Shown here: one piece after another, positions 6,533 to 31,592 of the stretch
Layout: every line of letters begins with the position of its first letter
Numbering within the stretch: the stretch's first letter is position 1
Source of the DNA: a virus
Length of the DNA: 36,227 nucleotides
Reading direction: 5' to 3' (one strand)
IMG/VR virus record: IMGVR_UViG_3300009703_000047
Location: 1-36,227 of that record
Program-made: the position numbers and the translations under genes
The notes under the pieces: model-generated
What the model saw: only the letters and a program-made list of their open reading frames with translations
The model's database searches: none
Told to the model about the DNA's origin: nothing

Positions 6533-8632
6533 TTAACCTCCTACCTCTGTAAATGCAACTCCACTTCTTGTGGCAATAAAGTTAAGAGTTACAAAGTTAA
6601 TTGAACGAGCAGGTCTGACAAAGATATCAGCAACAAACTCATTTCTATCTATTACTGAAGCTGTGTTATTTGTAGAATCTGCAATAACATTAAATGCTGA
6701 TATTCCTCTTCTACCTTGAATATCTCTCAAGAAAGGTTCTACAAGATTTCTAAATTGTGCTCTTGTAAATTCATCATTGAATTCAAAGAGTTGAAACTTA
6801 GCTGCAGTTGCGATAGATTTTTCTAATAATAAGAATAATCTTCTTACGTTTATTCTATCAAATGCGCTTGGTGTTGATAATGCAGTTTTATCTCCGAATA
6901 GAACAACACCTTGACCTGGAAAGTTTACAACTGGGTTAATTCTTGCTCTATATAAATCATCTCTTTGAGATTGATTTGGATTAAATGCTAACTTAATCGC
7001 ACCTCTTATGTTTCCTCTATTGAAACCTGCAGGTGAGAAAAATGCATCAGCAATTTGATCTGTAAATGCACAAAGTCCAGCGACATCAGCATTTAATGGT
7101 ACAAATCTAAATACATCATTGTATTTGTCGTACATATATTTGTAACCACTATCAAATACAACATATGAAGATGATGGGCATAAATCAAATGCTGTTTTAA
7201 CATTTGAACTTTGTGTTATATTACTTGCAACTCCAACAACGGCAGAACGATATGGTGATACAAATGCAACACAATCTCTACGTTTCTCTACTAATTTTGT
7301 TATCATTGTTACATGAGTGTCTTGTCCACTAGATGAGTCTGTAACTGCACTTGATGAACCACCTATAACTAAGTTAATGTCAATTGACTCTTGGTCATCA
7401 AATTTATCATATGCAGTTTCAATTTCTCCAGCTGTTACTGCGTAATCATCAGCACCACTTTGAAGATTAGTTGCTGTAGGTGAAGTTAAATCAGAATATG
7501 CGGCTGTGCCTGTTTCTAATGTGATATTATCATTTTGATCGACACTACCTGCGGCCGATGAATCCATAACGATATTATCTCCATTGTCTGTTCCAGCACC
7601 ATCTGTTCCATCTATGATGATAGAACCTGAACCTCCATCAATATCTGTTCCAAAATTAGTTCCACCTGTATTATGGTCCATCCAAAAAACAAATTCAGAT
7701 TGTCTATAAATTACATCTGGGTAATATATTGAGTCACCTTGTGGCGACTTTGCATTTGGATTAACTGAAAGAGAAGCAAAAGTTTCTAATATAGCATTTG
7801 TTCTTTGACCATTAGCATCTACTGAAAATCCATTTATTTTTCCGAGTCTATCATAAACTACGATATGAATTTCGTCTAATGTTCCTCTGTTATTTTGTGT
7901 TGCAAAAGATGATGTGCCTGGAGCTGCATCAAATAAATCATAGAATCTCCATCTTCTTCTGACATTAGTGCCTGAAGCAACTGTTGATTGCAATCCACCG
8001 CCGTTAGGGTCATCTTTTAATTTTATTGTTAGTGTTGGTGTACCTGTTGAAACGGCGGTTACTTCGTATTCACTACCATCTGTTTCACCAAAATTTACTA
8101 TATCTCCAACATTGAAACCTGTTGCAGATGTAATTGAAATTACTGTTTGTCCTACTGCTTCTTCAGCAGAGGTTGTTGTCTTTGCAGTTTCTTCATATGC
8201 AGTTGAACTTGCACAAATTGAAACTCCTAATCCATTTCCGTGTGTTCCAGCACTTCTTGCTGCCCACTCACCAACTGAACCTTGACCCTCTGAAAAACTT
8301 TCTAGATAATGATCTGTATCTCTAATTAATAAACCTGTACTACCAGATGCAACTGCGTTAGTCACACCAGACTCTATACGAACAACTCTTAATGCATTAG
8401 AGTATTGTAAAAAGTTAGCTGCAGAAAACCAATTTTCGTATGAGTTATTTGTAGATTGGGGTTTACCAAATGTTTTTACTAAGTCCTCTTCAGAAGTGAT
8501 GTTAACTACTGTACCCACAGGTCCTTTTTCAAAGGCAGCTGCAATGGCACCAATTGATGTTGCAACAGCTGGAACTACATTAGTTAAATCTATTTCTTTT
8601 ACCTGAACACCAGGTGAGACCAAAAATGCCAT
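6533..8632 (-). CDS. 18: Contractile tail sheath protein gp18
   Basis: This is the T4-type sheath subunit, which contracts to drive the tube into the cell. The 699-residue product (T4: 659) starts with the conserved FLVSPGVQVKEIDLTN and ends with the sheath core (AFDRINVRRLFLLLEKSIA, then FNVIADSTNN and RPARSINFVTLNFIATRSG). Residues about 330-385 form an insertion in the variable middle part that holds one copy of the window's repeated module (IIIDGTDGAGTDNGDNIVMD), followed by a second, weaker strand pair. In T4 the middle domains face outward, so the insertion is probably exposed; this is inference. GAGGAGA precedes the ATG, and an exact late octamer lies at 8665-8672. Confidence 0.97.
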   Translation of the reverse strand: MAFLVSPGVQVKEIDLTNVVPAVATSIGAIAAAFEKGPVGTVVNITSEEDLVKTFGKPQSTNNSYENWFSAANFLQYSNALRVVRIESGVTNAVASGSTGLLIRDTDHYLESFSEGQGSVGEWAARSAGTHGNGLGVSICASSTAYEETAKTTTSAEEAVGQTVISITSATGFNVGDIVNFGETDGSEYEVTAVSTGTPTLTIKLKDDPNGGGLQSTVASGTNVRRRWRFYDLFDAAPGTSSFATQNNRGTLDEIHIVVYDRLGKINGFSVDANGQRTNAILETFASLSVNPNAKSPQGDSIYYPDVIYRQSEFVFWMDHNTGGTNFGTDIDGGSGSIIIDGTDGAGTDNGDNIVMDSSAAGSVDQNDNITLETGTAAYSDLTSPTATNLQSGADDYAVTAGEIETAYDKFDDQESIDINLVIGGSSSAVTDSSSGQDTHVTMITKLVEKRRDCVAFVSPYRSAVVGVASNITQSSNVKTAFDLCPSSSYVVFDSGYKYMYDKYNDVFRFVPLNADVAGLCAFTDQIADAFFSPAGFNRGNIRGAIKLAFNPNQSQRDDLYRARINPVVNFPGQGVVLFGDKTALSTPSAFDRINVRRLFLLLEKSIATAAKFQLFEFNDEFTRAQFRNLVEPFLRDIQGRRGISAFNVIADSTNNTASVIDRNEFVADIFVRPARSINFVTLNFIATRSGVAFTEVGG
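7562..7622 (-). repeat. DGTD module copy in sheath gp18
   Basis: This segment encodes IIDGTDGAGTDNGDNIVMD, one copy of the dispersed hLDGTDxSSTNAGDxIhLE module. It lies in the variable central part of the sheath, between conserved N- and C-terminal sheath blocks. The Asp/Gly/Asn-rich turn is flanked by short hydrophobic strands. Confidence 0.75.
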
Positions 8633-8672: not shown

Positions 8673-8715
8673 AATTTTAATATTTGAAATCAATGGTTTT
8701 ATATACCATTAGTCA

Positions 8716-8723
8716 TATAAATA
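8716..8723 (+). promoter_or_regulatory. T4-type late promoter for the HNH-like gene
   Basis: An exact plus-strand TATAAATA lies five bases before the ATG at 8729. With T4 late-promoter spacing the RNA would begin at or next to that ATG, giving a leaderless or nearly leaderless message. An alternative is that the motif is chance and the gene starts further upstream (TTG 8684 or ATG 8693). Confidence 0.6.
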
Positions 8724-8728
8724 ATCGT

Positions 8729-9028
8729 ATGGAAACACATTACCAAAAATATAAAGAAACTATTAAAAAAGTAGCTCGTAGACATTACAATAAAAGGGGG
8801 TCTTGGTTAAACAAAACCTTGGCAAATAAATCTTGTAGTTATTGTGGTGAAAGCGAAACTGTGTGTTTAAAATTCCATCCTCATGATTCTGATATTCGTA
8901 AACAATCAAAGAGAGTTGGAATTAATGAAGAAAGCAGAAAAGAGATAAATGAACTTATTAATAATTGTAAAGTTGTGTGTTCAAACTGTTGGATAAAGTT
9001 AGATAATGATCTTATTGAAATTATTTAA
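8729..9028 (+). CDS. HNH-like zinc-binding protein, possibly inactive homing endonuclease
   Basis: The product has 99 residues from the ATG at 8729; in-frame ATG 8693 or TTG 8684 would add 12 or 15. Two zinc-type Cys pairs are visible, CSYC (36-39) and CSNC (84-87), spaced as in phage HNH endonucleases. FHPHD (49-53) stands where the first catalytic His block normally lies, and an Asn (93) follows the second pair. The usual C-x-x-C-H ending is here C-S-N-C-W, so one expected His is missing and nuclease activity is doubtful. The N-terminus is basic (KKVARRHYNKRG), consistent with DNA binding. It lies on the opposite strand between gp18 and gp17, next to the BMP cargo gene, a typical place for a homing-type insertion. 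No good ribosome binding site was seen before any candidate start. Confidence 0.65.
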   Translation: METHYQKYKETIKKVARRHYNKRGSWLNKTLANKSCSYCGESETVCLKFHPHDSDIRKQSKRVGINEESRKEINELINNCKVVCSNCWIKLDNDLIEII

Positions 9029-9031
9029 AAA

Positions 9032-9104
9032 CATAAGTTTACTCCTAGTATAAATAAGAAGATTTATCAATTCAAACTTATTTACATAAAGGAGCAAACT
9101 TATG
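9032..9104 (+). promoter_or_regulatory. RBS-masking hairpin upstream of BMP gene
   Basis: CATAAGTTTACTCC (9032-9045) is the reverse complement of GGAGCAAACTTATG (9091-9104) at 13 of 14 positions, and 9046/9090 add one more pair. The downstream arm contains the core of the ribosome binding site (AAAGGAG, 9088-9094) and the start codon (9102-9104). Read-through RNA from the HNH gene would bury both. RNA begun at the late promoter inside the loop would leave them free. CAAACTTAT also occurs at 9073-9081, so an alternative pairing exists that would free the start site. Confidence 0.7.
9049..9056 (+). promoter_or_regulatory. T4-type late promoter for the BMP gene
   Basis: An exact plus-strand TATAAATA lies 45 bases before the BMP ATG. 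The predicted start of transcription, near 9062, falls inside the loop of the inverted repeat 9032-9104. RNA from this promoter therefore lacks the upstream arm that would otherwise mask the ribosome binding site. Confidence 0.8.
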
Positions 9105-10112
9105 AAATCATTATTTATAAACAGAAGAGAGTTCAGCGTGGGTAGTGCGGCCGCAATAGCTGCATTAACATCATTACCTACATTTGCTGGTACAAAAATA
9201 AAAGTTGCTGGAATTTATACAGTTCCAACTCAACAAAAATGGGTAGCAAGATTACATCTCGCTTTAGATGCAGCTGCAAAAAGAGGTGAGATAGAATATG
9301 TGTATTCAGAAAGCACAGCAAATACTGATTATGTAAGAGTCATGAGAGAATATTGTTCTCAAGGGGTTCAGTTAATAGTTGGAGAAGCATTTGGTATTAG
9401 TAAAGAAGCCAGAAAAGTTGCTGACGATTATCCACAAATAGCATTTCTAATGGGTGACCCATTTAAACCTCACGGAACTAATTTCTCAGTATTTGATAAC
9501 TACATACATGAACCTTGTTATCTAATGGGTATTCTTGCAGGTCATATGACTAAAACAAATAAAATTGGAATGGTCGGTGGTTATGCTATCGGTGAAGTTA
9601 ACAGATTGTTCCATGCGTTTATGGATGGCTCTAGGTCTGTAAATTCAGATGTTCAATTTAAAGTAACATTTATTGGTTCTTGGTATGACCCACCGAAAGC
9701 AAAAGAAGCAACATTTGCACAAATAGAATCAGGTTGTGATATAATGTATGCAGAAAGAGCTGGAGTTGTTGACGCTTGTAGAGAAAAAGGTATTCTCGCA
9801 TTTGGAAATGTTAACGATATGAATAAAGAAGAAAATGGAACAGATGTTGTTGTTACATCAGCATTATGGCATATGGAAGATGCGATTAATCACGCAATAG
9901 ACAGAGTTAAGTCTGGTACATTCTCCTCTGAAGAATATCACGATTGGACAATGATGGCAAAAGGTGGAGCATCACTTGCACCTTATTATGAATTTGCAAA
10001 TAGAGGTGTAGTTGCCACGGTTAAATCTAAAATTGCAGCTTTAGCAGAAGATATTAAATCTGGTAAGTTTGTTGTGATTATAGATGACACAGAACCTAAA
10101 TCTACATTTTAA
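9102..10112 (+). CDS. BMP-family (PnrA-like) solute-binding protein with Tat signal
   Basis: This 336-residue protein resembles the BMP/PnrA-like family of periplasmic substrate-binding proteins of ABC importers, several of which bind nucleosides; the ligand here is not known. The N-terminus carries a twin-arginine signal (NRREFSVG, residues 7-14), a hydrophobic stretch to about residue 24 and a likely cleavage after PTFA (29). No lipobox Cys is seen. Family features are KVAGIYTVPTQQKWVARLH at 34-52, QLIVGEAFGISKEA, the FSVFDNYIHEPCYLMGILAGHMTKT hinge region split across 118-142, and KIGMVGGYAIGEVNR. The gene looks intact. It has AAAGGAG seven bases before the ATG and its own late promoter and hairpin. 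It lies between gp17 and gp18, which are adjacent in T4, so it is an acquired cargo gene, probably of host origin. It has no permease or ATPase neighbours and would need host partners. Confidence 0.9.
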   Translation: MKSLFINRREFSVGSAAAIAALTSLPTFAGTKIKVAGIYTVPTQQKWVARLHLALDAAAKRGEIEYVYSESTANTDYVRVMREYCSQGVQLIVGEAFGISKEARKVADDYPQIAFLMGDPFKPHGTNFSVFDNYIHEPCYLMGILAGHMTKTNKIGMVGGYAIGEVNRLFHAFMDGSRSVNSDVQFKVTFIGSWYDPPKAKEATFAQIESGCDIMYAERAGVVDACREKGILAFGNVNDMNKEENGTDVVVTSALWHMEDAINHAIDRVKSGTFSSEEYHDWTMMAKGGASLAPYYEFANRGVVATVKSKIAALAEDIKSGKFVVIIDDTEPKSTF

Positions 10113-10120
10113 ATAAAATA

Positions 10121-10169
10121 ATTAGAGAGATTTCGTTAACCATAATTTGTCTAGCCAAATCTCTCTAAT
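10121..10169. terminator. Perfect 13-bp inverted repeat at convergent gene ends
   Basis: ATTAGAGAGATTT (10121-10133) and AAATCTCTCTAAT (10157-10169) form a perfect 13-bp stem with a 23-base loop. It lies just after the BMP stop and overlaps the last codons of the minus-strand gene that ends at 10122. On the minus strand it is followed by a T-rich stretch (TTATTTTATTT). It could end both converging transcripts or protect their 3' ends. The stem is AT-rich and lacks a clean U run, so termination strength is uncertain. Confidence 0.6.
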
Positions 10170-10757
10170 ATCTTTAACTTTATCATGGTTGGTATCTTCT
10201 ATATTTAAATATTCACAAATTTTATCTAGTTGTGTCAACCATTTTTTAGAATAATAAACTAAACTCATATCCACAGTAAAATAATCATCATGTTTAGGTA
10301 AAGGTACTTGTTTTAAACAATCCTCTCTTATCGACTCTCCATTTATTAAATACAAACTAGGTTTAACATAATTATCTACAAAGTGGAGAATTAGAGGCCA
10401 TCTTTTTTTTATTTGTAAAAGTTTAGGATTATATTTTTCTACATCTAAAAGTTCTACATTGTTATGTTTAATACTGTGAAGTATATCAAAATATTCTTCT
10501 GTAAAAAATGTATCTGTATTTTTATTACATAAAAAGTTTTTATTCCCACCTTCCCAATGTTCTTTTTTTGAGTGGGATTTAATTATGTATTCGTAAACAT
10601 CTCCGTCATAATGTTCGTTCAGATGAAAATCTTTTGACATTGATAAACATTGTATTAAAAAGTTTCCACCTGCACCATTAGAAAAATGCACACCTACAAC
10701 ATTACCAATCAGTTTCGTAAGTTCTGACAACTGGGTTCCATTTTGTGCCGTATTCAT
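10122..10757 (-). CDS. Unknown protein downstream of gp17
   Basis: This 211-residue protein is not recognised with confidence. I prefer the ATG at 10757 to the TTG at 10772 because GGGGAG stands seven bases before it, inside the gp17 coding region; the overlap with gp17 is 56 bases. Near the N-terminus is a hydrophobic strand followed by a Gly-rich loop (VVGVHFSNGAGGNFL, about residues 20-34) that recalls phosphate-binding loops of sulfotransferase-like enzymes, but no further family motif was seen. The rest is basic and rich in aromatic residues. It ends the gp13-to-gp17 operon, and its 3' end forms half of the inverted repeat at 10121-10169. Confidence 0.75.
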   Translation of the reverse strand: MNTAQNGTQLSELTKLIGNVVGVHFSNGAGGNFLIQCLSMSKDFHLNEHYDGDVYEYIIKSHSKKEHWEGGNKNFLCNKNTDTFFTEEYFDILHSIKHNNVELLDVEKYNPKLLQIKKRWPLILHFVDNYVKPSLYLINGESIREDCLKQVPLPKHDDYFTVDMSLVYYSKKWLTQLDKICEYLNIEDTNHDKVKDIREIWLDKLWLTKSL

Positions 10758-12345
10758 CAACCATCTCCCCAATATTTTCTTCTTCTAAACCATTAACAAC
10801 AAATCCAAAAGGAGCCATGTCTTGTTCTAATTGATTTTGTTGTTCACTATACATTTTCTGTCTAATATTTAAATCAGTTAATTCTTTAAAATAAGTTTGA
10901 TCTGTCGCCCAAGCAAAAATAACACAACACATAACTAAATCATCATTTGCACCTTCCTCTGCTCTCCATTGATTTCCAAATGAAACAAATGTAGAAAACT
11001 CATTTATTAAATCAAAATCTTGTACTAATAATTTATCTGTTTCTAATATCTGTTTTAAATTAGAACACCCAACAGATTTAACAGTTTTTGTTGTCCTCAC
11101 ACCTAATTGTGCTTTTCCACCAGAGTAACCTCCACCCATAATCTGACCTGCACGACCACGCATATAACACATTACTATATTATCATATTCTAAATCAAAA
11201 TGCAAGTTATTTGCAACTTGTTCACCTATGTCATTAACCTCTATTAAAACATATGCATTATTATAAGCCTTTGCTACATCATGAATTTTATGAGGGAACA
11301 TCAAAGGTTTTAATTCATTATCTTTAAATGTTGCTACTATTTTATATGGTATTTCTGTAACATCAAAAACAATGTATGCAGAGTTATCATTTTTAGTTCC
11401 TCTGGCAACATCTGCCGTTAACATATATGTTTTATCTTTTTGTGGTTTTTCATAAACCGATAATCCAGCATATTGTTCTATTGGAGTTTTATATGCCATA
11501 CTTCTCAATTTACTCGCATTGATAAGTGTGTTTGTAGAACCTAAAAATTCACACTCAAATTCTGAATTAAATTGTTGTTGACTTGTATTTCTTATCGTTT
11601 CTTCTTTCCATTTCTCATCACGACCTGGCACTTCTGTCCAATGAACCTCAATAGGAACATAACTATTTCTTTTATGTTCTGCATCTGTCCATATTTTGTA
11701 AAACATATTCATACCATGAGGTGTAGATACAATAATAACTTTTGTAGATTTACCAGAAGTTATTGTAGGATAAACTGAACTAAAAAATTGTTCAGCAATA
11801 GTAGGTGGAACGAAAGCAAACTCATCTAAAAATATAACATTAAAAGAACCACCACGAATAGCAGAAGCAGAAGTTGAGGCCGCAAGTATTTTAGAACCAT
11901 TTTCTATCTCTAATGATCCTTTATTCCAAGACAAGATTCCTTGTTGTAACCAAGTTGGAAGATTTTCATATGCAAGTTGCAATCTACCTAATATATCTCT
12001 TGCAGTTGCAGCTTTGTTTGCTAGTATGGCTATATTTACATTTGGATTAAATAATGCATAATGAAGTAAGTACGCTATCATTATTGTTGATTTACCAGAT
12101 TGTCTAGGTAATTTGCAAATAGTAAAACGATTCTTATGAAATGTACCAATCATATCTTTTTGAAAATTATACATTCTAAAAGGAACAAGACCCTCATCTA
12201 ATGAAACAATTTTCATATAATTTTCTACAAAATATAAAGGATTATCCATACACTTTTTATACTCTGTAATGTTTTGTTTTGTAAACTCTACAGCTGTGTT
12301 TGCTTTTTTAAGATTTGGATTTCCTAGATATTGTGCGTTTGCCAT
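10702..12345 (-). CDS. 17: Terminase large subunit gp17
   Basis: This is the packaging motor ATPase and headful nuclease. The 547-residue product (ATG at 12345) has Walker A LPRQSGKST (79-87), Walker B NVIFLDEF (169-176), the coupling motif VSTPHG (206-211) and the RNase-H-like nuclease start MLTADVARG (308-316, Asp312). T4 gp17 is 610 residues. A TTG four codons upstream is in frame, but GAGGAA fits the ATG at 12345. That start lies one base after the stop of the nuclease gene. The 3' end overlaps the unknown gene that follows. The preserved motor and nuclease motifs indicate an active enzyme. Confidence 0.97.
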   Translation of the reverse strand: MANAQYLGNPNLKKANTAVEFTKQNITEYKKCMDNPLYFVENYMKIVSLDEGLVPFRMYNFQKDMIGTFHKNRFTICKLPRQSGKSTIMIAYLLHYALFNPNVNIAILANKAATARDILGRLQLAYENLPTWLQQGILSWNKGSLEIENGSKILAASTSASAIRGGSFNVIFLDEFAFVPPTIAEQFFSSVYPTITSGKSTKVIIVSTPHGMNMFYKIWTDAEHKRNSYVPIEVHWTEVPGRDEKWKEETIRNTSQQQFNSEFECEFLGSTNTLINASKLRSMAYKTPIEQYAGLSVYEKPQKDKTYMLTADVARGTKNDNSAYIVFDVTEIPYKIVATFKDNELKPLMFPHKIHDVAKAYNNAYVLIEVNDIGEQVANNLHFDLEYDNIVMCYMRGRAGQIMGGGYSGGKAQLGVRTTKTVKSVGCSNLKQILETDKLLVQDFDLINEFSTFVSFGNQWRAEEGANDDLVMCCVIFAWATDQTYFKELTDLNIRQKMYSEQQNQLEQDMAPFGFVVNGLEEENIGEMVDEYGTKWNPVVRTYETDW

Positions 12346-12346
12346 T

Positions 12347-12769
12347 TTATTCCTCAAAAGATTGAATTGTATGCAATCCTAATTTTGCTCTATTTTTTAA
12401 ATGTGCTTCTTTTATATCTTTTTTAGATTGACCTTCATATCTAACTGCATGATTTTCCTCTACCATTCTCTCATTAATATTTGTGTCAAATGCCCACAAC
12501 TCACCTAATATTCTTCCAAACTTTCCTTTAGCATCATATGTTTTTGTTTTTAAAACAATATTACCTGCTGATAAATATCTTTCCAAATATTCTTTAGCTG
12601 CAAATCCATATATCTTCTCTATGTCATCTGAAGTTCTAGATTCTGGTGTGTCAATCCCATAAAGTCTAACTCTCTCATCACGCAACCATACACCAAATCC
12701 TAAATCTATATCTACATCTACAGTATCACCATCAACAACTTTTACTACTTTACATTGATATTCGTACAT
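12347..12769 (-). CDS. Staphylococcal-type (thermonuclease-like) nuclease
   Basis: This 140-residue protein of the SNase family is expected to cut DNA or RNA with Ca2+. Visible family signatures are VKVVDGDTVDVDID (9-22, metal-binding Asp), RLYGIDTPESR (35-45, with Arg35 and Glu43 in the catalytic positions) and DAKGKFGRILGE (79-90, second catalytic Arg86). No signal peptide is seen, so it probably acts inside the cell. GAGGAGA precedes the ATG. It overlaps the glutaredoxin gene by 20 bases and ends one base before gp17. That placement suggests a role linked to packaging or host DNA breakdown, though this is not shown. Confidence 0.9.
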   Translation of the reverse strand: MYEYQCKVVKVVDGDTVDVDIDLGFGVWLRDERVRLYGIDTPESRTSDDIEKIYGFAAKEYLERYLSAGNIVLKTKTYDAKGKFGRILGELWAFDTNINERMVEENHAVRYEGQSKKDIKEAHLKNRAKLGLHTIQSFEE

Positions 12770-13364: not shown

Positions 13365-13711
13365 TATTTCTCCTTTAACATTCTTTGTAATTCAGCAGTT
13401 GAACCTACAAATAATGCATTAGTAACATTTTTTGGTGCATCATTTGGTACTTCTTTTAGTTTTTTCATTTTAGTTTGTAAATCGCCGAGTTTTTCTGTAA
13501 CATCTCCAACTTGTTTTATTAATTGTCCAGCAACCTCATATGCTCTAGGGTGCTGACTTTGTTGGGCTAAATCTAAAATACCTTGTATCGCATCTTGACC
13601 TCTCTCAACTAAGTTGTAAAAGTTCTGTCTTTGATACTCATAATCTCTATCAACATCTGGTGTTGAATCTATTTGATTAGTTTGATATAATTTTTCTGTT
13701 CCGTTACTCAT
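13364..13711 (-). CDS. 16: Terminase small subunit gp16
   Basis: This 115-residue helical protein matches the T4-like small terminase, which regulates gp17 and recognises DNA for packaging. The family pattern is clear: DYEYQRQNFYNLVERGQDAI, then GILDLAQQSQHPRAYEVAGQ followed by LIKQVGDVTEKLGDLQ, and the C-terminal LFVGSTAELQRMLK. T4 gp16 has 164 residues, so this is a compact form. Its ATG overlaps the stop of the oxygenase gene (TAATG). In T4, gp16 and gp17 are adjacent; here four small genes separate them. Confidence 0.93.
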   Translation of the reverse strand: MSNGTEKLYQTNQIDSTPDVDRDYEYQRQNFYNLVERGQDAIQGILDLAQQSQHPRAYEVAGQLIKQVGDVTEKLGDLQTKMKKLKEVPNDAPKNVTNALFVGSTAELQRMLKEK

Positions 13712-14274
13712 TAATCCATTTTACCTTCCTCTGGGTATAACCACCAACCCGTTGATATATATTTAGATTGATGATGAACTGGGTTTCCTCTATGTTGCCA
13801 AGGAAATGCGGCTGGAAATATTGCCATCATACCTTTTTTAGGTTGTACTCTAATATTTTCTAACAAAAATTCTGTTTCTCCCTCATTTTTCTTTATATCG
13901 TTTAGATATAATGTCCAAACTAAAACTCTACGAATATTTTTGTAGTGAGATATCTCTGAATGAAAATTATGAAATCCACCACCTTTGGGGTCTGTTTTTT
14001 GTATTTTAGTTTCTTTTGATATAAGTTTTTGATTCCCCCTATAAACATAAGGAAACTCCTCTAGATATAAATCTAAAGTTTTTCTTTTTACAATTTCTAT
14101 TTTATTATAAAGAGAAGAATCTATTGACACCCACTTTTGTAAATCTTTTCTTGTATCTCTATTTGCTGAAACAGTTTTAGAATCTTTATCTGACTCAAAC
14201 CAATCTAACATCTCTTGAACTAATTCATCTGAGGCTGCATTGTTATAAATTCTACAAAAATCACTTAATTTCAT
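13711..14274 (-). CDS. 2OG-Fe(II) oxygenase, prolyl-4-hydroxylase-like
   Basis: This 187-residue protein resembles small 2-oxoglutarate/Fe(II) dioxygenases common in marine T4-like phages. The iron site appears as H-x-E (His105-Ser-Glu107 in GGGFHNFHSE) plus His161 in PWQHRGNP, and Lys171 in SKYISTGWW sits where the 2-oxoglutarate-binding basic residue is expected. Other family blocks are RVLVWTLYLND and EGETEFLLENIRVQPKKGM. Glu instead of Asp in the metal triad is known in related phage and bacterial proteins. AAGGAG precedes the ATG. It is the last gene of the three-enzyme cassette inserted between gp15 and gp16. Its substrate is unknown. Confidence 0.85.
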   Translation of the reverse strand: MKLSDFCRIYNNAASDELVQEMLDWFESDKDSKTVSANRDTRKDLQKWVSIDSSLYNKIEIVKRKTLDLYLEEFPYVYRGNQKLISKETKIQKTDPKGGGFHNFHSEISHYKNIRRVLVWTLYLNDIKKNEGETEFLLENIRVQPKKGMMAIFPAAFPWQHRGNPVHHQSKYISTGWWLYPEEGKMD

Positions 14275-14277
14275 ATT

Positions 14278-14868
14278 TTACTCCTTGTAAATAAAAATAG
14301 GGTCTAATTTTTTATCTTTTTCAATTAACTCATATCCAATTGGAAATAATAATTTTTTTAAATTTTTTCTTTTTATTTCATTATCTAATTTTATTATCTC
14401 TACTTGTAAAGTTGGTTTATATTTTTTAATTGTTTCTATCCCACCAAGTATGATATCATATTCACTACCCTCTGCATCTATTTTAATAAAATTGGGTTCT
14501 AATTTATATGAATCTAATTTTTTTGTTGACCTAATAGTTTTTATAATATTAGATTTATATCCTTTTTCTTTCCATCTACTAAAATTTTCTTTATAAAAAG
14601 TAGATAATCCTTTATGAATTGTGTCTATGTAAAATTCTTTATATGAATCTGTTGAATGTAATGCTTGATTGTAATATATAAATTTTTCATCCTCTATTAA
14701 TTCTACATATGGATGACAATCAAATGCAACAACTTTTTCAAAGGCTTTTATATAAATTCTAGAGTGACTACCATTACAATATCCTATATCAACACAATTT
14801 TTAAATTCTTTTTGATATTCTAAATGTATATTTAGAGCATGAAAAATATTATCATCATCTTTTTTCAA
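14278..14868 (-). CDS. FkbM-family methyltransferase
   Basis: This 196-residue SAM-dependent methyltransferase has the FkbM pattern: motif I NCVDIGYCNGSHS (24-36), the acidic end of strand 2 VVAFDCHP (46-53), and the signature KLEPNFIKIDAEGSEYDIILGG (in two parts, 122-143). FkbM enzymes usually O-methylate sugars or polyketides. The start is TTG at 14868, whose last bases overlap the upstream TGA (TTGA); GGAAG lies just before it and no in-frame ATG follows soon. Together with the radical SAM and oxygenase genes it suggests modification of a glycan or other small acceptor. Confidence 0.87.
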   Translation of the reverse strand: MKKDDDNIFHALNIHLEYQKEFKNCVDIGYCNGSHSRIYIKAFEKVVAFDCHPYVELIEDEKFIYYNQALHSTDSYKEFYIDTIHKGLSTFYKENFSRWKEKGYKSNIIKTIRSTKKLDSYKLEPNFIKIDAEGSEYDIILGGIETIKKYKPTLQVEIIKLDNEIKRKNLKKLLFPIGYELIEKDKKLDPIFIYKE

Positions 14869-15794
14869 GTTCTTCCTGCTTTCATAAAAGTTCTGGTGCT
14901 TGTTTTGCCTCCTCTACGACCACAATATGTTTTACATATCTCGGGTGCATTTTCTGGATTATCTTTTAACATTTTATGAAAATCAATCCATTCTTTTGAG
15001 TTAATAATATCATTTACACTTTTCACATTACCTATACTAAATTTATCATCTGTTAGTTCTGGCAAAAAACTTAAATGTTGTTGCCCTGGTTGCCAATACC
15101 AACAACAAGGTAACAGTTTTCCTTGAAAATCCCAACCATATTCTTTATTTTTTAAACAGGCAGGATCAAATGTGTTTAAGTTTTGTTTTAATGTAAACCC
15201 CGTTTCTGGCTTTAGTGGATTCTCATCATCAAACCTTGACGATTCAATTAATAAAAATTCCATATTTTCGTCAACAGCCATTCCGTAGGCCTCAAAACTG
15301 TCATCCTCATTGTAATCAAAGACTATATATTGCCAAGAAACAAAAATTCCCATAGAAACACCAAGTTTCATCATTTCATATAACTTATTTCCATCTTGAT
15401 TGACACGATATTTGTGACTATCTTTTGGTAAACCATCTAATCCAAAAATCCATTTTGCATTTTTGTTTGCCTCAAATGCTTTTATATACCATTCTTTTGG
15501 TTGATGTGATGCTGATGTGTGAATTTGTACTTGAATATTTCTTTGATCACATAACTCTAACATTCTTATAAAGTTAGGATTGAAAACTGGGTCAGATATA
15601 TTTCCACAAAAAAGAATTCTTTCAAAATAATCTGCGATTTTTACAAAATCTTCAAATGATAAATCATTTTTTGGAATTTTTTGATTATGTTTAACATACC
15701 ACTGGCGATCACAACCACTACAACTTAAAGTGCATTTAGAAGATATGTCTAAATTTATTGCTTTTTCTCTACTTATCTGTTCCACTTGTTTCAT
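14865..15794 (-). CDS. Radical SAM protein with SPASM-like C-terminus
   Basis: From the ATG at 15794 the product has 309 residues; a TTG at 15815 and an ATG at 15809 are other in-frame options. The [4Fe-4S]-SAM motif C-T-L-S-C-S-G-C (CxxxCxxC) lies at residues 21-28 after NLDISSK. The C-terminal part has more Cys (PACLKNKE, LLPCCWYW, CKTYCGRRGG), as in SPASM or twitch domains that bind extra iron-sulfur clusters. Such enzymes modify peptides, sugars or cofactors; the substrate here is unknown. The gene overlaps gp15 by 26 bases and the methyltransferase by 4, so it is tightly built into the late neck operon. Confidence 0.88.
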   Translation of the reverse strand: MKQVEQISREKAINLDISSKCTLSCSGCDRQWYVKHNQKIPKNDLSFEDFVKIADYFERILFCGNISDPVFNPNFIRMLELCDQRNIQVQIHTSASHQPKEWYIKAFEANKNAKWIFGLDGLPKDSHKYRVNQDGNKLYEMMKLGVSMGIFVSWQYIVFDYNEDDSFEAYGMAVDENMEFLLIESSRFDDENPLKPETGFTLKQNLNTFDPACLKNKEYGWDFQGKLLPCCWYWQPGQQHLSFLPELTDDKFSIGNVKSVNDIINSKEWIDFHKMLKDNPENAPEICKTYCGRRGGKTSTRTFMKAGRT

Positions 15795-16575
15795 CAAAAT
15801 TCTTCGCATCCTCAAAGAAACTTATTGTTTCATTAAATCCAAAATCATCATCAGCAGTAGCTGTAGTTGGGTTTGGTGTTACTGTGATTCGTTGTTCTCT
15901 CGTAGGTTGTACCTCTGGTAAATTACTATATTGATCAACTTGAACTTGTTTAATAATTTTTGAATCTGTAACTGGTCCATAAAGATAAAATTTAGAAGTA
16001 AATCCTAAAGTATAGATTATTGCTCTTCTTTCTGTGAATTCTCCACGATAACTATCCTCATAAGATATAGAATTTAAAACAATGGGAACATCTCTTTTAA
16101 TTCCCATTTCAGGTATATCATTTATTGTAACAGTATAATCTGGTTGAAAGTATGGGAGTATTTGTTCTATCATTTGTAATGCATCATCTGATTGTTTTGC
16201 CATAGCATATAACTCAAAATCTAAATTATATGGAACTGGCATAAATTGACTATCTAGTTTTGATGTGACACCTGTTGTTCCTTGTACCTTTTTAAATTTT
16301 TGAACTCTGTTTAATTTTCTTGTGGAATCATAAGTTAAGTTTTGTATTTCAAATGCAAGTCTTGGTAAAGTAATTGCTACTTTACTATCTAAATTTGCAT
16401 CTTGATCTAATCTTGCAAGAAATTTTTGTTTCGGGCCATATGCAAGTGGAACTTTCATTTTTTGGACCACTGCTCCACTATTATTTTTTCTGACTAAATT
16501 TATGTTATTAAATATTGTACCAAAGGTTACAATTATTTTTCTAATGGTTTCGTGATAGAATTGTTGTCCTAACAT
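15769..16575 (-). CDS. 15: Tail sheath stabiliser / completion protein gp15
   Basis: This 268-residue protein (T4 gp15: 272) caps the tail and joins it to the neck. The start MLGQQFYHETIRKIIVTFGT followed by IFNNI, and KMKVPLAYGPKQKFLARLDQ, are hallmark gp15 blocks. LPRLAFEIQNLTYDSTRKLN and the QIEQILPYFQPDYTV-like region (MIEQILPYFQPDYTVTIND) follow. The C-terminal 40 residues are acidic. The ATG overlaps the gp14 stop (TAATG). Its 3' end is overlapped by the radical SAM gene. Confidence 0.96.
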   Translation of the reverse strand: MLGQQFYHETIRKIIVTFGTIFNNINLVRKNNSGAVVQKMKVPLAYGPKQKFLARLDQDANLDSKVAITLPRLAFEIQNLTYDSTRKLNRVQKFKKVQGTTGVTSKLDSQFMPVPYNLDFELYAMAKQSDDALQMIEQILPYFQPDYTVTINDIPEMGIKRDVPIVLNSISYEDSYRGEFTERRAIIYTLGFTSKFYLYGPVTDSKIIKQVQVDQYSNLPEVQPTREQRITVTPNPTTATADDDFGFNETISFFEDAKNFDETSGTDK

Positions 16576-17684
16576 TATGTGCTCCCTACATCACCGAATG
16601 GATTTGTTTCACTAAAATCTAAAATAGAATCATCAGCTGCATCAAATTGTTCATTCTGTGCGGTTGTATCTGTAGTACCATCTCCAACTTTGTATTCCTC
16701 TTGAAGTAAGAATGAGGTACCATCTTTTGTTTCTAGTATTATTCTTTCACCAACTGAAGTTGAATCATTTTCATGTAAGATATTATCTCCATCTGTTTCT
16801 TCTAATAACAATCCACCCTCAAAGAATAAGAAAGATTCTAGTGCAACATTTTCGTTGACAGCAGATGATTGTTCTAATGTAAATTGGAAATCTGAACTGT
16901 CTAATCCCAAACCTGACTCTATGGAATCTACTACATCAATACCTGTATCAATCGCTTCTGAACTGTATTCGTATTGTCTACATCTTAATTTATATACTGG
17001 GTTATTATCTAATTGATGAAAAGGTTCATCATGGTCTACAAAACTTATTTCAAACATTTTTGATAATATTGGGTGATAAACTAAATCACCTTCATTTGGT
17101 CTATCTCCACTTGTAGTCGCTGTGTCCATAATTAAATAAAATTCCATGCCACTTTCTTCAGATAATATCTTTGCAGTATTATCATCTTCTAATAAAAAAC
17201 TATCTCCAGCATTAGTTGAAGAACTGTCTGTTCCATCAATAAATATAAAACTTTTTGTTACTGTGCTTAATGTTGATGACAAAGTGGTTTGATTTAACGA
17301 CCCTGCTTCCAATAATATAGAACCGCCAGTAGAGCCAGTTCCATCTTCAAGTGTAATCTGACTATCTAATTCTTTAAATCTATCTTGATGAAGAACAAAG
17401 GTTACCTCGTTTCTATTCTCTAATCCAAATTGACTCATTATTTCTTTTTCGCCAGCATATCCACCAGAACCATCTTCAACATACATTTCTATTGGGTGTT
17501 GTCTTGTAAATTTAGATAAAGAATCTTCACCCAAAATATCATCTCTTGCAACAAGAGTTCTATCCATGTAATAAACATCATGGCCATAAATCTGTATTGC
17601 CTCTTTAATCAAATCACTATAAAGATTTCTTTCAGCCTTTATTGAATGAAGGTTGTTCGTATGAAATACTGAATTAACTGCCAT
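16575..17684 (-). CDS. 14: Neck protein gp14 with inserted repeat modules
   Basis: This is the T4-type neck protein, needed for joining head and tail. Family blocks are the N-terminal VFHTNNLHSIKAERNLYSDL with EAIQIYGHDVYYMDRTLV, FGLENRNEVTFVLHQDRF, GDLVYHPILSKMFEISFVDH and PFHQLDNNPVYKLRCRQYEY. At 369 residues it is over 100 longer than T4 gp14 (256). The excess is two insertions, at about 111-178 and 278-332, made of ILLE/LLLEE strands and one DGTD module (IFIDGTDSSSTNAGDSFLLE, 147-166). The first insertion splits the conserved blocks, so it was probably added to a standard gp14. GGGAT precedes the ATG. Confidence 0.94.
   Translation of the reverse strand: MAVNSVFHTNNLHSIKAERNLYSDLIKEAIQIYGHDVYYMDRTLVARDDILGEDSLSKFTRQHPIEMYVEDGSGGYAGEKEIMSQFGLENRNEVTFVLHQDRFKELDSQITLEDGTGSTGGSILLEAGSLNQTTLSSTLSTVTKSFIFIDGTDSSSTNAGDSFLLEDDNTAKILSEESGMEFYLIMDTATTSGDRPNEGDLVYHPILSKMFEISFVDHDEPFHQLDNNPVYKLRCRQYEYSSEAIDTGIDVVDSIESGLGLDSSDFQFTLEQSSAVNENVALESFLFFEGGLLLEETDGDNILHENDSTSVGERIILETKDGTSFLLQEEYKVGDGTTDTTAQNEQFDAADDSILDFSETNPFGDVGST
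17188..17250 (-). repeat. DGTD module copy in neck gp14
   Basis: This segment encodes IFIDGTDSSSTNAGDSFLLE, one copy of the dispersed module, within the first insertion of gp14. It is flanked by similar hydrophobic-acidic strands (SILLEAG, KILSEESG). Confidence 0.8.
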
Positions 17685-17686
17685 TA

Positions 17687-18499
17687 TTATCCCTTATGGA
17701 GAGTTGCTGGATATTGCATATTTTGTATTTGATCTTCTATGTTTGTAATCTCTTCTTGTGCTTGAGAGTAAATTTCTCCACCATTCATTTCTACTCCACC
17801 TAACATTTGCACACCTTGAAACTTTGATAAATTTGCACCCCATTGTTTTTTAATAAGTGCAGTTGCATATCTTTTTAAATGCATATCATTAAAAACATCT
17901 GTGTATGTTGCTGGGTCTAATTTCCTATAACATTCAATAACGATATAATCACCAGCAGTAACATCTTCATTCCAATCCATATCTAAATATAATCTGTTTT
18001 GATGTTCATAATGTCTTATTGGTATTTCTCCAACTAAAATATGACTTAAAAGGTCTATCTGGTCCATTACCATTTGATAATGTAAAATAGAACTTGATGT
18101 AAAATCATAGATATCATTTAATCTTATTTGATAACGAATATCAAAAAGACCATTCGTAGAAGAATCGTCAAATGGAAAAACTTGAACTACTGACAATACA
18201 CTACTTGGTACAGGTATAAATCCTTTTCCCTCTAACCAATCTGCTGTTATTGATGAAGATGCAGAATCCGTTGCAGTAGTTGTTTCATTCGTTGTGGCTC
18301 TGTCAATTTCTGCCTGAGTCATTTGATGTTTTAGATAAACTTTTTCAACAGAGTCATAATGGTAATGTGCAAAGTATTGAACTGCTTCATCAATCCTATC
18401 ATCAACTTGAGCATCTGTTACGTTAATATCAATAGCACCAAAGCCTAGTGCTCGTAAACAATAATCTTTAAATGTCGATTTTGAATTTGGTATGGCCAT
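17687..18499 (-). CDS. 13: Neck protein gp13
   Basis: This is the T4-type neck protein, which with gp14 completes the head before tail joining. The 270-residue product (T4: 309) starts MAIPNSKSTFKDYCLRALGF and continues with VTDAQVDDRIDEAVQYFAHY and HYDSVEKVYLKHQMTQ, typical of gp13. The C-terminal half has DLLSHILVGEIPIRHYEHQN, LYLDMDWNED and LKRYATALIKKQWGANLSKF. AAGGAAAA precedes the ATG, and an exact late octamer lies at 18518-18525. It is the first gene of a long coupled operon that reaches the unknown gene ending at 10122. Confidence 0.95.
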   Translation of the reverse strand: MAIPNSKSTFKDYCLRALGFGAIDINVTDAQVDDRIDEAVQYFAHYHYDSVEKVYLKHQMTQAEIDRATTNETTTATDSASSSITADWLEGKGFIPVPSSVLSVVQVFPFDDSSTNGLFDIRYQIRLNDIYDFTSSSILHYQMVMDQIDLLSHILVGEIPIRHYEHQNRLYLDMDWNEDVTAGDYIVIECYRKLDPATYTDVFNDMHLKRYATALIKKQWGANLSKFQGVQMLGGVEMNGGEIYSQAQEEITNIEDQIQNMQYPATLHKG

Positions 18500-18517
18500 C
18501 TTTTTTCCTTTATATAC

Positions 18518-18525
18518 TATTTATA
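18518..18525 (-). promoter_or_regulatory. T4-type late promoter for the gp13-gp17 operon
   Basis: An exact minus-strand TATAAATA lies 19 bases before the gp13 ATG, with a predicted start near 18512. No other exact minus-strand octamer was found between here and the inverted repeat at 10121-10169, so this promoter probably serves all 13 genes of the operon, enzyme cassette included. Confidence 0.8.
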
Positions 18526-18529
18526 TGTC

Positions 18530-18558
18530 TTGACATTTGTTATAAAGTAATATATAAT
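18530..18558 (+). promoter_or_regulatory. Perfect consensus sigma-70 promoter
   Basis: TTGACA (18530-18535) and TATAAT (18553-18558) are separated by exactly 17 bases. Transcription would start near 18565, about 24 bases before the first glycosyltransferase-like gene. It is divergent from, and only a few bases away from, the late promoter of gp13. The match to the bacterial housekeeping consensus is complete, which suggests strong early transcription by unmodified host polymerase. Confidence 0.85.
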
Positions 18559-18588
18559 TACTTTGTATTATAACATAAAGAGTATTTA

Positions 18589-19470
18589 ATGTCAAAAGTT
18601 ATTTTTAGTCTATACATAGATATACCTGAAAAAGATTTAGATTTGTTTGACACACATATTTTAAAAGAAAACGAAATATCTAGAAATCTTTTAACTAAAC
18701 AAGCCTTCAGAGATAACTATAATAAACTTATTGAGTGCAAAAAACGATACGCAGAAGCCGTGGGGGCAAAATTTGTATTATATGAGTATAATGAAGATTA
18801 TATAAGTTATAGAAATTATTGGAAAAAACATTTTCCTCAAATAACCGATTATAATATCGTTAACTTTTATAAACTTAAATGTATGTTTGCACTAAATCAT
18901 ATTTATGATGAAGTATTATATTTAGATTTTGATACGATACCAACAACAAACGAAAGTTTTTTTGAAAGATGGGATTTATCAAAAGGTATTGCATTATTAA
19001 ACAATAATAATAAAATAAGAAGTAAAGGTCAAAAAACTCATCAAATAACTGGCACAATTAGAAGCCCGTCTGCAAAATATTATAATGCACAAGCAATGTT
19101 ATTAGAAAATAATTACCCTCTAGATTGTGATGTTGTAAATACTGCGATCATTGGAATGACAAAAAAACATTCTATACAACTTAAATACTTTCATGGTATT
19201 GGAGAAACAATACGGCTAATGGATTATCTAAAAACTGAAGAATATGAAAGTGTATTTCCAAAAAACATCACTAAAATCTTTGGATATGATAATGAAACAA
19301 TATTCTCATATAAAATAAAAACGACAAATACACCTGTTCAATGGTTAGATAATGAATGGCATTATTTTTATGATGCAGAATTACATATTCCTAAAGAAAC
19401 TAAAATAATACACGCCATAAATAAACGATTTGATTTTTGTTGGAGGTTTTATGAAAAACTTGATCTTTAG
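18589..19470 (+). CDS. Glycosyltransferase-like protein, first of a tandem pair
   Basis: This 293-residue protein looks like a GT-A-type glycosyltransferase. The DxD-type motif that binds metal and nucleotide sugar is YLDFDTIPTT (111-120), preceded by a strand-helix region (FYKLKCMFALNHIYDEVL). A later VVNTAIIGM block fits the acceptor side of GT8-like enzymes, and the N-terminal strand is VIFSLYIDI. It is a paralogue of the next gene, with matching blocks in the same order. It is on the plus strand, opposite the structural genes, behind a perfect sigma-70 promoter, with a weak AAAGAG ribosome site. It probably modifies host or phage glycans early in infection; the substrate is unknown. Confidence 0.75.
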   Translation: MSKVIFSLYIDIPEKDLDLFDTHILKENEISRNLLTKQAFRDNYNKLIECKKRYAEAVGAKFVLYEYNEDYISYRNYWKKHFPQITDYNIVNFYKLKCMFALNHIYDEVLYLDFDTIPTTNESFFERWDLSKGIALLNNNNKIRSKGQKTHQITGTIRSPSAKYYNAQAMLLENNYPLDCDVVNTAIIGMTKKHSIQLKYFHGIGETIRLMDYLKTEEYESVFPKNITKIFGYDNETIFSYKIKTTNTPVQWLDNEWHYFYDAELHIPKETKIIHAINKRFDFCWRFYEKLDL

Positions 19471-20278
19471 TGTGTATTATGATATAGACAATATTGATAT
19501 AGATCACAATAAAAAACAAACAAATACTAAATCTCAATTAAAAAAATATTTTGACAAGTTAGTAGATAATAAAAAACAATATGCTAAAATTTGTGATGCA
19601 GATTTTGAATTAATTACTGATTTTGACACAAAGATAAGTTTTGATAATTTACAATTTCAAAAAATATTTTTATTAGAAGAGTTAGTAAAAGATTATGACA
19701 ACATTTTATATCTAGATTTAGATGTTGTTGTTAATACCAACAAAAACTTTTTCAAAAAGTTTGATATGAATACGATTTGTTGTAAAAGTTTTTATTGTAG
19801 TTTATATAATGAGTATGGTTTGAAAAATTCTGATTATAATCACATATCTAACGACATAGAAAATGAAATAAAAAATCTCGACAGGTATCATTGGGTTATT
19901 AAAGGTTATACAAAAGAAGCCATGATGAAATATCACGATATTTTTAAGGAAACTAATCTTGTGATAAACACAGCAATAGTTGGTGGTGGAAAAGAAGCAA
20001 TAAGTAAGTTAAAATTTTACGAAAACTTTTCTTCAATGTGTGATATGATAGAAAAATTAAAAAAAGATGAACTTTACCCAGATTATATCAGAGAAAAATT
20101 TGATATGAACAATGAAGTATTTTTTACATATCTTTTAGAGAAAAATAAACTACCATTTACAGACTTACCACAATGGTGGCATCAATTAATTTTAAAAGAA
20201 ACATCTCTTAAATGCACTGGTGTATCACAAGCCCAAATGTTACACATTATTGATAAAAATTTTAAGAGGATTTTTTGA
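19451..20278 (+). CDS. Glycosyltransferase-like protein, second of a tandem pair
   Basis: From the ATG at 19451, chosen because GGAGG lies four bases before it, the product has 275 residues. It overlaps the first glycosyltransferase-like gene by 20 bases. The DxD motif is YLDLDVVVNT (87-96). The same block order as its neighbour is seen: LIFSVYYDI at the start, a KKQYAKICDADFELI segment, the DxD strand, INTAIVGGG, and a Trp-rich end (LPQWWHQL). The gene runs tail to tail into the minus-strand gene ending at 20262, overlapping it by 17 bases, with no terminator visible between them. Confidence 0.75.
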   Translation: MKNLIFSVYYDIDNIDIDHNKKQTNTKSQLKKYFDKLVDNKKQYAKICDADFELITDFDTKISFDNLQFQKIFLLEELVKDYDNILYLDLDVVVNTNKNFFKKFDMNTICCKSFYCSLYNEYGLKNSDYNHISNDIENEIKNLDRYHWVIKGYTKEAMMKYHDIFKETNLVINTAIVGGGKEAISKLKFYENFSSMCDMIEKLKKDELYPDYIREKFDMNNEVFFTYLLEKNKLPFTDLPQWWHQLILKETSLKCTGVSQAQMLHIIDKNFKRIF

Positions 20279-20825
20279 TTTCTAAAAGTATTTCTAGTAT
20301 CTCTATTGGAGTTTTTGCTTTTCTTAATTTAGACTTTAATTCTCTATCTTGACACTCTCTTACTAAATCTAATTCAAATGCACCTAACTTAACAATGAAT
20401 AAATCTTCTTTTTGTTTGTCTGCATCAAAATCGTTAAAAAATAATTTTAACCCATAAGAGTAAAATTTAGTGTCTACTTTTGCAGAATTGCTCTCTGCAT
20501 CATAATATGCAACTGGGTCTATAAGTAACCCTTCTTCTTTTCCACATCTAATCGCAAACTCTCTAAATGCAGCCTCATCTCTTTTTATTCTTTGATAAGT
20601 ATTTTCGTGAAGAGTATCTAAATCAATTAATGACCATAATTTAGTAACGATTGGGTGAGGTTTACCTTTATCTTTTCCTATCTCAATCTTATCATTTATA
20701 TTAATTATTGTATTTTTTTGTTCAAGAGTAAGTGGGTCTTTCCATATTACATTTACCATCACTCTTTCATTGTCCACAAATTCTGCTGTGTAAAATGTAC
20801 TCTCATTAATATCATCTAAATTCAT
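20262..20825 (-). CDS. Unknown 187-residue protein upstream of the neck genes
   Basis: I do not recognise the family. The protein is soluble-looking, with an N-terminal beta-like half (FYTAEFVDNERVMVNVIWKD) and a helical C-terminus rich in Lys and Glu. Inside is IRCGKEEGLLIDPVAYYDAE. It has AAGGATAT before the ATG and follows the 317-residue virion protein by 14 bases, so it is probably transcribed from the late promoter at 21815-21822. Its position between tail-fibre-like genes and gp13 suggests a conserved virion or assembly protein, but that is only context. Its 3' end overlaps the convergent glycosyltransferase gene. Confidence 0.78.
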   Translation of the reverse strand: MNLDDINESTFYTAEFVDNERVMVNVIWKDPLTLEQKNTIININDKIEIGKDKGKPHPIVTKLWSLIDLDTLHENTYQRIKRDEAAFREFAIRCGKEEGLLIDPVAYYDAESNSAKVDTKFYSYGLKLFFNDFDADKQKEDLFIVKLGAFELDLVRECQDRELKSKLRKAKTPIEILEILLEIKKSS

Positions 20826-20839
20826 AATATATCCTTATT

Positions 20840-21793
20840 TTAAGATTGATTTATTTTAAAAACATAAGTATTTACTGTTTGTGCTGATCCGTTTGGAAAT
20901 TCTTGGGCACGATAATCATCAGCTCCAACATCTCTTGTATTATGAGCGCCCGAACCATCTAAATTTGTGTCAACAACACTACTTCCTCTTGCATTACCAG
21001 AGCCATCAAAATTGTAAGTAATCTTATAACTGTTTACATTACTTGTTGTGTGTCTAATTGCAGTTTGTAATAATGATTCTATATCTGCTTCAGCAAGTTG
21101 TTTTAAATTATTATCACTATCAATAGTAAGAAGTGTTCTTGATGGTGAATTATCAACACCATTTCTTCTTATTAAGTAATAAGAATTTATAGTTGATGGA
21201 AAATCTTGGGTTGATCCAGATGTGCCTATATTTGAGGCAGAAAATTGACCAGTATTAGCTCTAGTATCAACAAAAATTGCTGTGTTTGTGCCAGATACCT
21301 CTGTGTAATTTGTAACTGAAGATGATGTGTTAACTGAATATGTTCCTGCCGTATCTGATGACTCAGAAGCTGCACTTAATTTATCTACTGCTGGTTTGCA
21401 AAAAGTATCTATGAAATCATCTGCACTCATTGCCTGTAATCCACCAGTAGTGCTATCATAAAAAACTGGAAATGCTTTACTGTCGGTATCTGCTGTCATA
21501 CTGACATCTGTTACTGTCTGAGTAACTTTATCGTAGTTTGTTGTAATTGTGCCAGGTTCAGCAGTTTGGCCTTCACTTGGATTAGAAGAAGCTTGTTGTG
21601 CGGCCGCACCAGAAATTTTTCTCGTGTCTGCCATAGTTGGTGATATATTACCACTACTTGATACGATAGTTAAAACTGGATTTGGAGCTAAACTATATTG
21701 ATATATTGTTTGAGTTACATATTCTGTAATTTCAGACGTTGAAAGTTGCTTCAAGTCAGAACCATCCCAATAAACAGGTGTTCTTGCTGTCAT
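20840..21793 (-). CDS. Virion structural or fibre protein with threefold internal repeat
   Basis: This 317-residue, Ser/Thr/Asn-rich protein is of the kind found in marine T4-like fibre clusters. Three similar units can be seen: VYWDGSDLKQLSTSEITEYV near residue 7, VFYDSTTGGLQAMSADDFID near 110, and TIDSDNNLKQLAEADIESLL near 222. Each is a short strand, a Gly/Asp turn, L-(K/Q)-x-(L/M), then an acidic helix, followed by a long Ser/Thr-rich segment. This suggests an elongated or trimeric fibre built by duplication. GGGGAG precedes the ATG, and a late octamer lies 22 bases upstream. Confidence 0.72.
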   Translation of the reverse strand: MTARTPVYWDGSDLKQLSTSEITEYVTQTIYQYSLAPNPVLTIVSSSGNISPTMADTRKISGAAAQQASSNPSEGQTAEPGTITTNYDKVTQTVTDVSMTADTDSKAFPVFYDSTTGGLQAMSADDFIDTFCKPAVDKLSAASESSDTAGTYSVNTSSSVTNYTEVSGTNTAIFVDTRANTGQFSASNIGTSGSTQDFPSTINSYYLIRRNGVDNSPSRTLLTIDSDNNLKQLAEADIESLLQTAIRHTTSNVNSYKITYNFDGSGNARGSSVVDTNLDGSGAHNTRDVGADDYRAQEFPNGSAQTVNTYVFKINQS

Positions 21794-21814
21794 AATAAAT
21801 CTCCCCTTTTGTTA

Positions 21815-21822
21815 TATTTATA
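21815..21822 (-). promoter_or_regulatory. T4-type late promoter for the 317-residue virion gene
   Basis: An exact minus-strand TATAAATA overlaps the stop region of the preceding gene and lies 22 bases before the ATG at 21793. Predicted start of transcription is near 21809. Confidence 0.8.
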
Positions 21823-22981: not shown

Positions 22982-23001
22982 AGTTATTCCCTAATTCTTT
23001 T

Positions 23002-23009
23002 TATTTATA
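23002..23009 (-). promoter_or_regulatory. T4-type late promoter for the fibre-like gene
   Basis: An exact minus-strand TATAAATA lies 21 bases before the ATG at 22981, in the short gap after the 121-residue gene. Predicted start is near 22996. Confidence 0.82.
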
Positions 23010-23375
23010 TTACGCTATACTTCCTAAATCAATTGTTGCACCTGTAACCATAACTGTGCCAGTGGCGTCTGGAAAAGTTATTGTTCTATCTGCTGTTGGA
23101 TCGGTAACTGTTAATGTAGTTTCGTGTGCATTTGCAGTTGAACCTTCCAATACAATGTTAGAACCATTAATTGTAAGTGAATTACCAGTAATTGCATCTA
23201 GGGCAAAAGCACCAGTTATAGTTAAATCTCCAATACTAGCTGAAGATGCTGTCAAAGCACCAAAGTTTAATGTGCCTGCCTCTAATGCAGTAACATCTGT
23301 AACCAAATTATTAAATTTGACTCTAAATTGTTCTAAGGTATTATTACTACCTACTGTTGTTGCTGTTATCGCCAT
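23010..23375 (-). CDS. Short fibre-like virion protein
   Basis: This 121-residue protein has an N-terminal helix NNTLEQFRVKFNNLVTDVTA and a C-terminal TTLTVTDPTADRTITFPDAT block. Both are common at the two ends of much longer tail-fibre proteins in marine phages. The long central shaft is absent here, so this may be a minimal fibre or a remnant of a longer one. The first 29 bases overlap the end of the 83-residue gene. The ribosome site is weak. A variant late octamer (GATAAATA, 23433-23440) lies upstream inside the neighbouring gene. Confidence 0.75.
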   Translation of the reverse strand: MAITATTVGSNNTLEQFRVKFNNLVTDVTALEAGTLNFGALTASSASIGDLTITGAFALDAITGNSLTINGSNIVLEGSTANAHETTLTVTDPTADRTITFPDATGTVMVTGATIDLGSIA

Positions 23376-30056: not shown

Positions 30057-30057
30057 A

Positions 30058-31554: not shown

Positions 31555-31579
31555 GACTTTCCTTTACAATCTCTATTGT

Positions 31580-31587: not shown

Positions 31588-31592
31588 CATTG

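Follow-up and report, generated by a model that had tools for sequence, protein, structure and literature searches.

A phage gene at 9102–10112 (plus strand) encodes a solute-binding protein (SBP) of the BMP family, 336 aa long, that is probably the solute-binding subunit of a bacterial BMP-type importer adopted by the phage, with cytosine as its most likely ligand and the importer of the host as the complex that it loads. The gene lies in a 36-kb IMG/VR virus record (IMGVR_UViG_3300009703_000047, positions 1–36,227), here called the window, and the window phage reads as a T4-like myovirus. The argument is built on the family of the protein, the operon and kinship of its host orthologues, purifying selection on the phage copies and the absence of partner genes from the phage stretches; the ligand, the export, the docking and the benefit to the phage are inferred. 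The SBP would probably be expressed late in infection, be exported via the Tat route and capture cytosine in the periplasm; the loaded protein would dock on the host's own permease/ATPase complex and raise import, as proposed for cyanophage PstS. Host cytosine deaminase would then convert cytosine to uracil and ammonium, and the uracil would go to pyrimidine nucleotides (along with nitrogen) for phage DNA.

The SBP gene and its setting between gp17 and gp18

The open reading frame is complete, with an AAAGGAG-like ribosome-binding site ahead of its ATG start and no internal stop, and its product matched Pfam PF02608 (Bmp/PnrA-like; E 1.1e-35, 123.5 bits compared to a gathering cut-off of 24.1). 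The NCBIfam model NF047927 (putative B6 ABC SBP) scored 87.6 bits and did not reach its curated cut-off of 400; a vitamin B6 SBP was rejected on this score. The N-terminus, MKSLFINRREFSVGSAAAIAALTSLPTFAG, was assigned by eye from the translation as a probable twin-arginine (Tat-like) signal (9102–9191), with an NRREF motif and an AxA-like cleavage site (TFA-G); residues 1–24 are of low confidence in the AlphaFold2 model of the SBP. Both the phage copies and the nearest hosts retain the NRRxF motif; the signals of some more distant orthologues are Sec-like.

The motif TATAAATA, the core of T4-type late promoters, occurs at 9049–9056 (plus strand), 45 bp upstream of the SBP start codon and inside a 73-bp intergenic stretch. 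It was observed 11 times in the window compared to 6.1 expected, and seven of its eight minus-strand copies lie 19–41 bp upstream of a late gene start. Motif position and counts support the predicted late expression of the SBP gene, so that the late promoter proposed in the first-pass annotation was a reasonable reading.

Genes gp23, gp20, gp19, gp18 and gp17 are all on the minus strand of the window; gp17 (large terminase, 10702–12357) and gp18 (tail sheath, 6533–8632) were assigned by family search, gp17 also by terminase comparison, and gp23, gp20 and gp19 by reading the translations. Among named phages, the terminases nearest to that of the window come from Methylophilales phage Melnitz (68%) and Pelagibacter phage HTVC008M (67%). 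On the plus strand, the gap between gp17 and gp18 holds the SBP gene and an HNH-endonuclease-like ORF (8684–9028, found by family search and gap comparison). The intact reading frame, the Pfam match and the flanks bear out the earlier description of a complete BMP-family protein with a Tat-like signal between these two genes; missing from that description were the HNH-like ORF and a 216-aa ORF (10122–10772, minus strand) in the same gap. The 216-aa ORF overlaps the end of gp17, had no Pfam or PHROG match, and is the second part of an insertion of about 1.65 kb between gp17 and the HNH ORF. No ATPase or permease was seen within the 36-kb window, in agreement with the earlier statement that none is encoded nearby. 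On the earlier concern that the gene might be an assembly error, two other IMG/VR metagenome records (L002 and L003) have identical gene order at 97.5–100% protein identity; because these records share the arrangement of the window, an assembly artefact or chimera is unlikely.

The gp17–gp18 gap was surveyed in the IMG/VR loci with the 80 closest terminases, using readable gaps only. The gap usually spans about 400–600 bp in these relatives and about 2.07 kb in the window, where it is longer because the SBP gene and the 216-aa ORF are inserted between gp17 and the HNH ORF. Every readable gap among the relatives examined has an HNH-like ORF on the strand opposite to gp17 and gp18, and none has a BMP gene. 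In two of the loci (L101:6448–8917 and L102) the slot holds a TctA-family transporter subunit (PF01970 in L101) and a 345-aa exported-looking protein, for which neither Pfam nor PDB gave a match in L101 and which resembles TctC by eye only. A third locus (L132:6431–7918) has a sodium:solute symporter family protein (PF00474) there, followed by two ORFs that look by eye like P-loop sulfotransferases. The site behaves as a slot for cargo, into which transport genes have been placed on more than one occasion. The HNH-like ORF may be a mobile endonuclease tied to this slot. Elsewhere in the window, several large structural-looking ORFs (16575–36212, minus strand) have a repeated motif of the type DGTDGSSTNAGDxI/LLEE, and genes for a 2OG-Fe(II) oxygenase and an FkbM methyltransferase, together with radical SAM/SPASM-like and glycosyltransferase-8-like genes, lie amid structural genes (13711–15815, minus strand; 18589–20278, plus strand).

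Host operon, candidate pocket and probable ligand

About 85,000 species genomes were scanned for host orthologues and the best 80 loci were taken; their SBPs are 70–83% identical to the window SBP, and most of the loci are from marine Alphaproteobacteria, among them SAR116 and records with the label Rhodobacteraceae. Wherever the contig allows, the orthologue is the first gene of an operon in the order SBP, ABC ATPase, permease, permease, and a deaminase gene is the usual fifth member. The gene after the second permease was readable in 67 loci and encodes a CodA-type cytosine deaminase in 53, an Fcy1-type enzyme in 10 (L047, L051, L056, L057, L058, L071, L072, L087, L091 and L098), both in none, and neither in four (L064, L074, L079 and L081). 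The CodA-type proteins scored 700–767 bits against NF005748 (cut-off 438; three scanned), and the Fcy1-type protein that replaces them is small and of an unrelated deaminase fold, its best solved relative being yeast cytosine deaminase (E 6e-41; one scanned). This swap at the same place of non-homologous enzymes sharing one reaction is the strongest evidence for cytosine transport; because two unrelated cytosine deaminases alternate at one operon position, it points to cytosine as the ligand and not to nucleosides. CodA-type enzymes can act on bases other than cytosine, so isoguanine, 5-methylcytosine or similar compounds are also possible ligands. No published account of a BMP-type cytosine transporter was found in the open-access journal literature searched. 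Between hosts the SBP is about 70–77% conserved compared to about 44–51% for its ATPase (L020 against L047–L098). ABC importers usually show the opposite; in part this is a selection effect of the search.

The AlphaFold2 model of the window SBP (pLDDT 82, pTM 0.80) has a two-lobed periplasmic-binding fold. The closest solved structures by Foldseek were AtzT (guanine-bound) and Brucella 3s99; structural Z values were 31.7 for AtzT (over 298–299 residues), 30.8 for 3s99, 30.7 for guanosine-bound Lbp and 28.7 for PnrA, where values within 1 are ties. The window SBP has about 30% identity to AtzT (PDB 6pi5) and to 3s99 (adenine modelled). The PnrA/Bmp nucleoside binders (2fqw, 6y9u, 6shu) share its Pfam family and fold, but with 16–22% identity and a lower structural score, and unlike their nucleoside ligands the host operon of the window SBP points to a base. 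The first-pass annotation had proposed nucleosides or a related nutrient, with PnrA-type binders for comparison; a nucleoside ligand is disfavoured by host operons ending in cytosine deaminases, and by overall similarity the closest solved relatives are the nucleobase binders AtzT and 3s99, ahead of PnrA.

AtzT has an affinity of 110 nM for guanine but of just 800 uM for cytosine; the guanine is sandwiched between Tyr45 and Trp194 and contacted by Ser97, Phe98 N, Glu165, Asn218 and Asn220 (PMC6834077). Aligned to AtzT, the window SBP has W47, F97, E165 and W194 in place of Tyr45, Phe98, Glu165 and Trp194, so that the aromatic clamp and the glutamate of AtzT-type binders, common also to 3s99, are present; Ser97, Asn218 and Asn220, in contrast, have become A96, Y216 and E218, and two residues next to Y216 are deleted, leaving the purine contacts unmatched. 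None of the seven candidate pocket residues varies among 32 phage and host proteins. By this alignment and invariance, the candidate pocket has kept the clamp for a flat ring and the key glutamate and has lost the purine-specific contacts, and at the seven aligned positions the phage pocket equals the host pocket.

The alternative that survives best, though we hold it unlikely, is that the phage SBP does load a host ABC importer but with some other small heteroaromatic compound or a nucleoside as ligand. The BMP-family structures matched by Foldseek name nucleosides, nucleobases and riboflavin in their titles; the purine-contacting residues of AtzT are changed in the window SBP, so that specificity is not readable from AtzT; and four operons are without a deaminase. 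However, 63 of the 67 readable operons have one of the two non-homologous cytosine deaminases, and the closest structures by both sequence and fold are nucleobase binders and not nucleoside binders. Cytosine stays the preferred ligand, on the evidence of the operon partners.

The phage copies: kinship, selection and probable role

Scans of IMG/VR gave 17 loci with a window-type SBP gene (78–100% identity), 15 of which encode full-length copies, and the copies are 78–88% identical across different phages. At least three kinds of phage carry the gene: the T4-like type of the window; SU10-like phages, in which a portal or major capsid gene is nearby (L008, L011 and L018); and contigs that have genes for ribonucleotide reductase, exonuclease or PhoH. 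For L004, L006, L007, L009, L010 and L012–L017 the phage type is less certain and rests on their presence in IMG/VR and on the ribonucleotide reductase, exonuclease and PhoH genes, because a terminase search (PF03237) of nine other SBP contigs matched only the record of L005.

A maximum-likelihood tree was made of 95 SBPs, 15 of them from phages. All 15 group together behind a single branch (support 86/70) and have one origin in 90% of bootstrap trees, which we regard as moderate support for phage monophyly. A phylogeny with host BMP proteins, as had been proposed at first pass, thus places the phage copies in one clade; this clade adjoins host group L019–L033, within a larger cluster with SAR116 and Paracoccaceae-labelled records, and the window SBP is nested among SBPs that head an ABC–cytosine deaminase operon. 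On the simplest reading of the tree, the gene was captured once from such a host and then spread among phages. The nearest host group has the length and the twin-arginine signal of the phage protein, and the host operon proteins have identical candidate pocket residues; the phage copies differ in forming their own clade and in standing alone, without ATPase, permeases or deaminase.

In the stretches examined of 97 phage loci with the window-type SBP or its paralogue, in records that are fragmentary, no ABC ATPase, permease or deaminase was found. Together with the complete transporter operon headed by the host orthologues, this agrees with the earlier proposal that the SBP has to feed a host importer. 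An SBP standing alone in these fragmentary phage records, with its partner transporter only in the host, is the arrangement of a PstS-like auxiliary SBP; the phosphate SBP PstS of cyanophages, listed with uptake assays in PMC12713726, is also phage-encoded without partners and thought to feed a host ABC importer, but it belongs to an unrelated SBP family and has another ligand. A close orthologue was present in only 7 of 96 Alphaproteobacteria genomes drawn evenly, so the phage host may lack the importer.

An improbable reading, raised at first pass as a further option, is that periplasmic binding of the ligand by the SBP serves a different end, for example sequestration or a hold on the host permease that shuts out a second phage. 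The phage loci encode no partner genes in the stretches examined, and at sequence level a role other than capture would leave the same picture; however, the candidate pocket residues are identical to those of host SBPs and the 78–88% identity among phages is that expected for the same ligand and transporter, and no features of exclusion proteins were seen in the SBP. Loading of the host importer is the role that we prefer. Between pairs of phage copies dN/dS was 0.06–0.12 with synonymous sites near saturation, and the phage SBP is under strong purifying selection; judged by its sequences, the gene is a long-standing resident of phages kept for its protein. A host gene picked up recently and carried as a passenger without function would fit the lack of the gene between gp17 and gp18 in the terminase relatives examined, where the gap is mostly short, but is very improbable given the low dN/dS with near-saturated synonymous change, a phage clade over at least three phage types, and the well-placed late-promoter motif.

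PHROGs gave no match for the SBP; INPHARED, searched by tblastn, gave matches of at most 33% identity, in human faecal records named "Bacteriophage sp." that have no annotation and in two records of Enterococcus phages; and BFVD yielded one distant match, a podovirus protein annotated as having a PnrA-like domain. No account of a phage BMP/PnrA or nucleobase SBP was found in the open-access journal literature searched. PstS is a known precedent for a phage-encoded SBP. What appears new is the family and the class of ligand, because there was no PHROG, no INPHARED phage at useful identity and no paper in the literature searched.

A second phage SBP and proposed nucleobase capture by marine phages

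A second BMP-family SBP, apparently of guanine type, was matched in at least 154 viral loci (among them L182–L261) and is also phage-borne without partner genes; twice it lies near a window-type gene (L011:8961–9989 and L017:5795–6874). It differs from the window SBP in sequence (27–28% identity) and is an orthologue of Brucella 3s99 (E 6e-131), and several of its loci have gp23 of T4-like phages or SU10-type capsid genes as neighbours. In the two genomes examined, the gene next to its host orthologue encodes a guanine deaminase (TIGR02967, over cut-off), which is independent evidence that the BMP family pairs with nucleobase deaminases. A 2OG-Fe(II) oxygenase gene (isopenicillin-N-synthase-like) lies between the two BMP genes of L017 (6874–7749), and a part for it in base modification or salvage is conceivable.

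We lean, with somewhat better than even confidence, to the broader proposal that marine phages of several unrelated types have acquired cytosine-type and guanine-type SBPs, sometimes side by side, and steer host importers to scavenge nucleobases for phage DNA. Phages usually obtain nucleotides by degrading host DNA and with enzymes of their own such as ribonucleotide reductase. If the proposal holds, nutrient capture parallel to that by cyanophage PstS would be aimed at nucleic acid precursors, the PstS idea would extend to a new nutrient class, and phage-raised uptake of nucleobases from seawater would tie infection to the pool of dissolved organic nitrogen. For the hosts, the exchange of two enzymes in the operon puts forward a ligand that can be tested directly, for a widespread marine transporter of which the literature searched gave no description.
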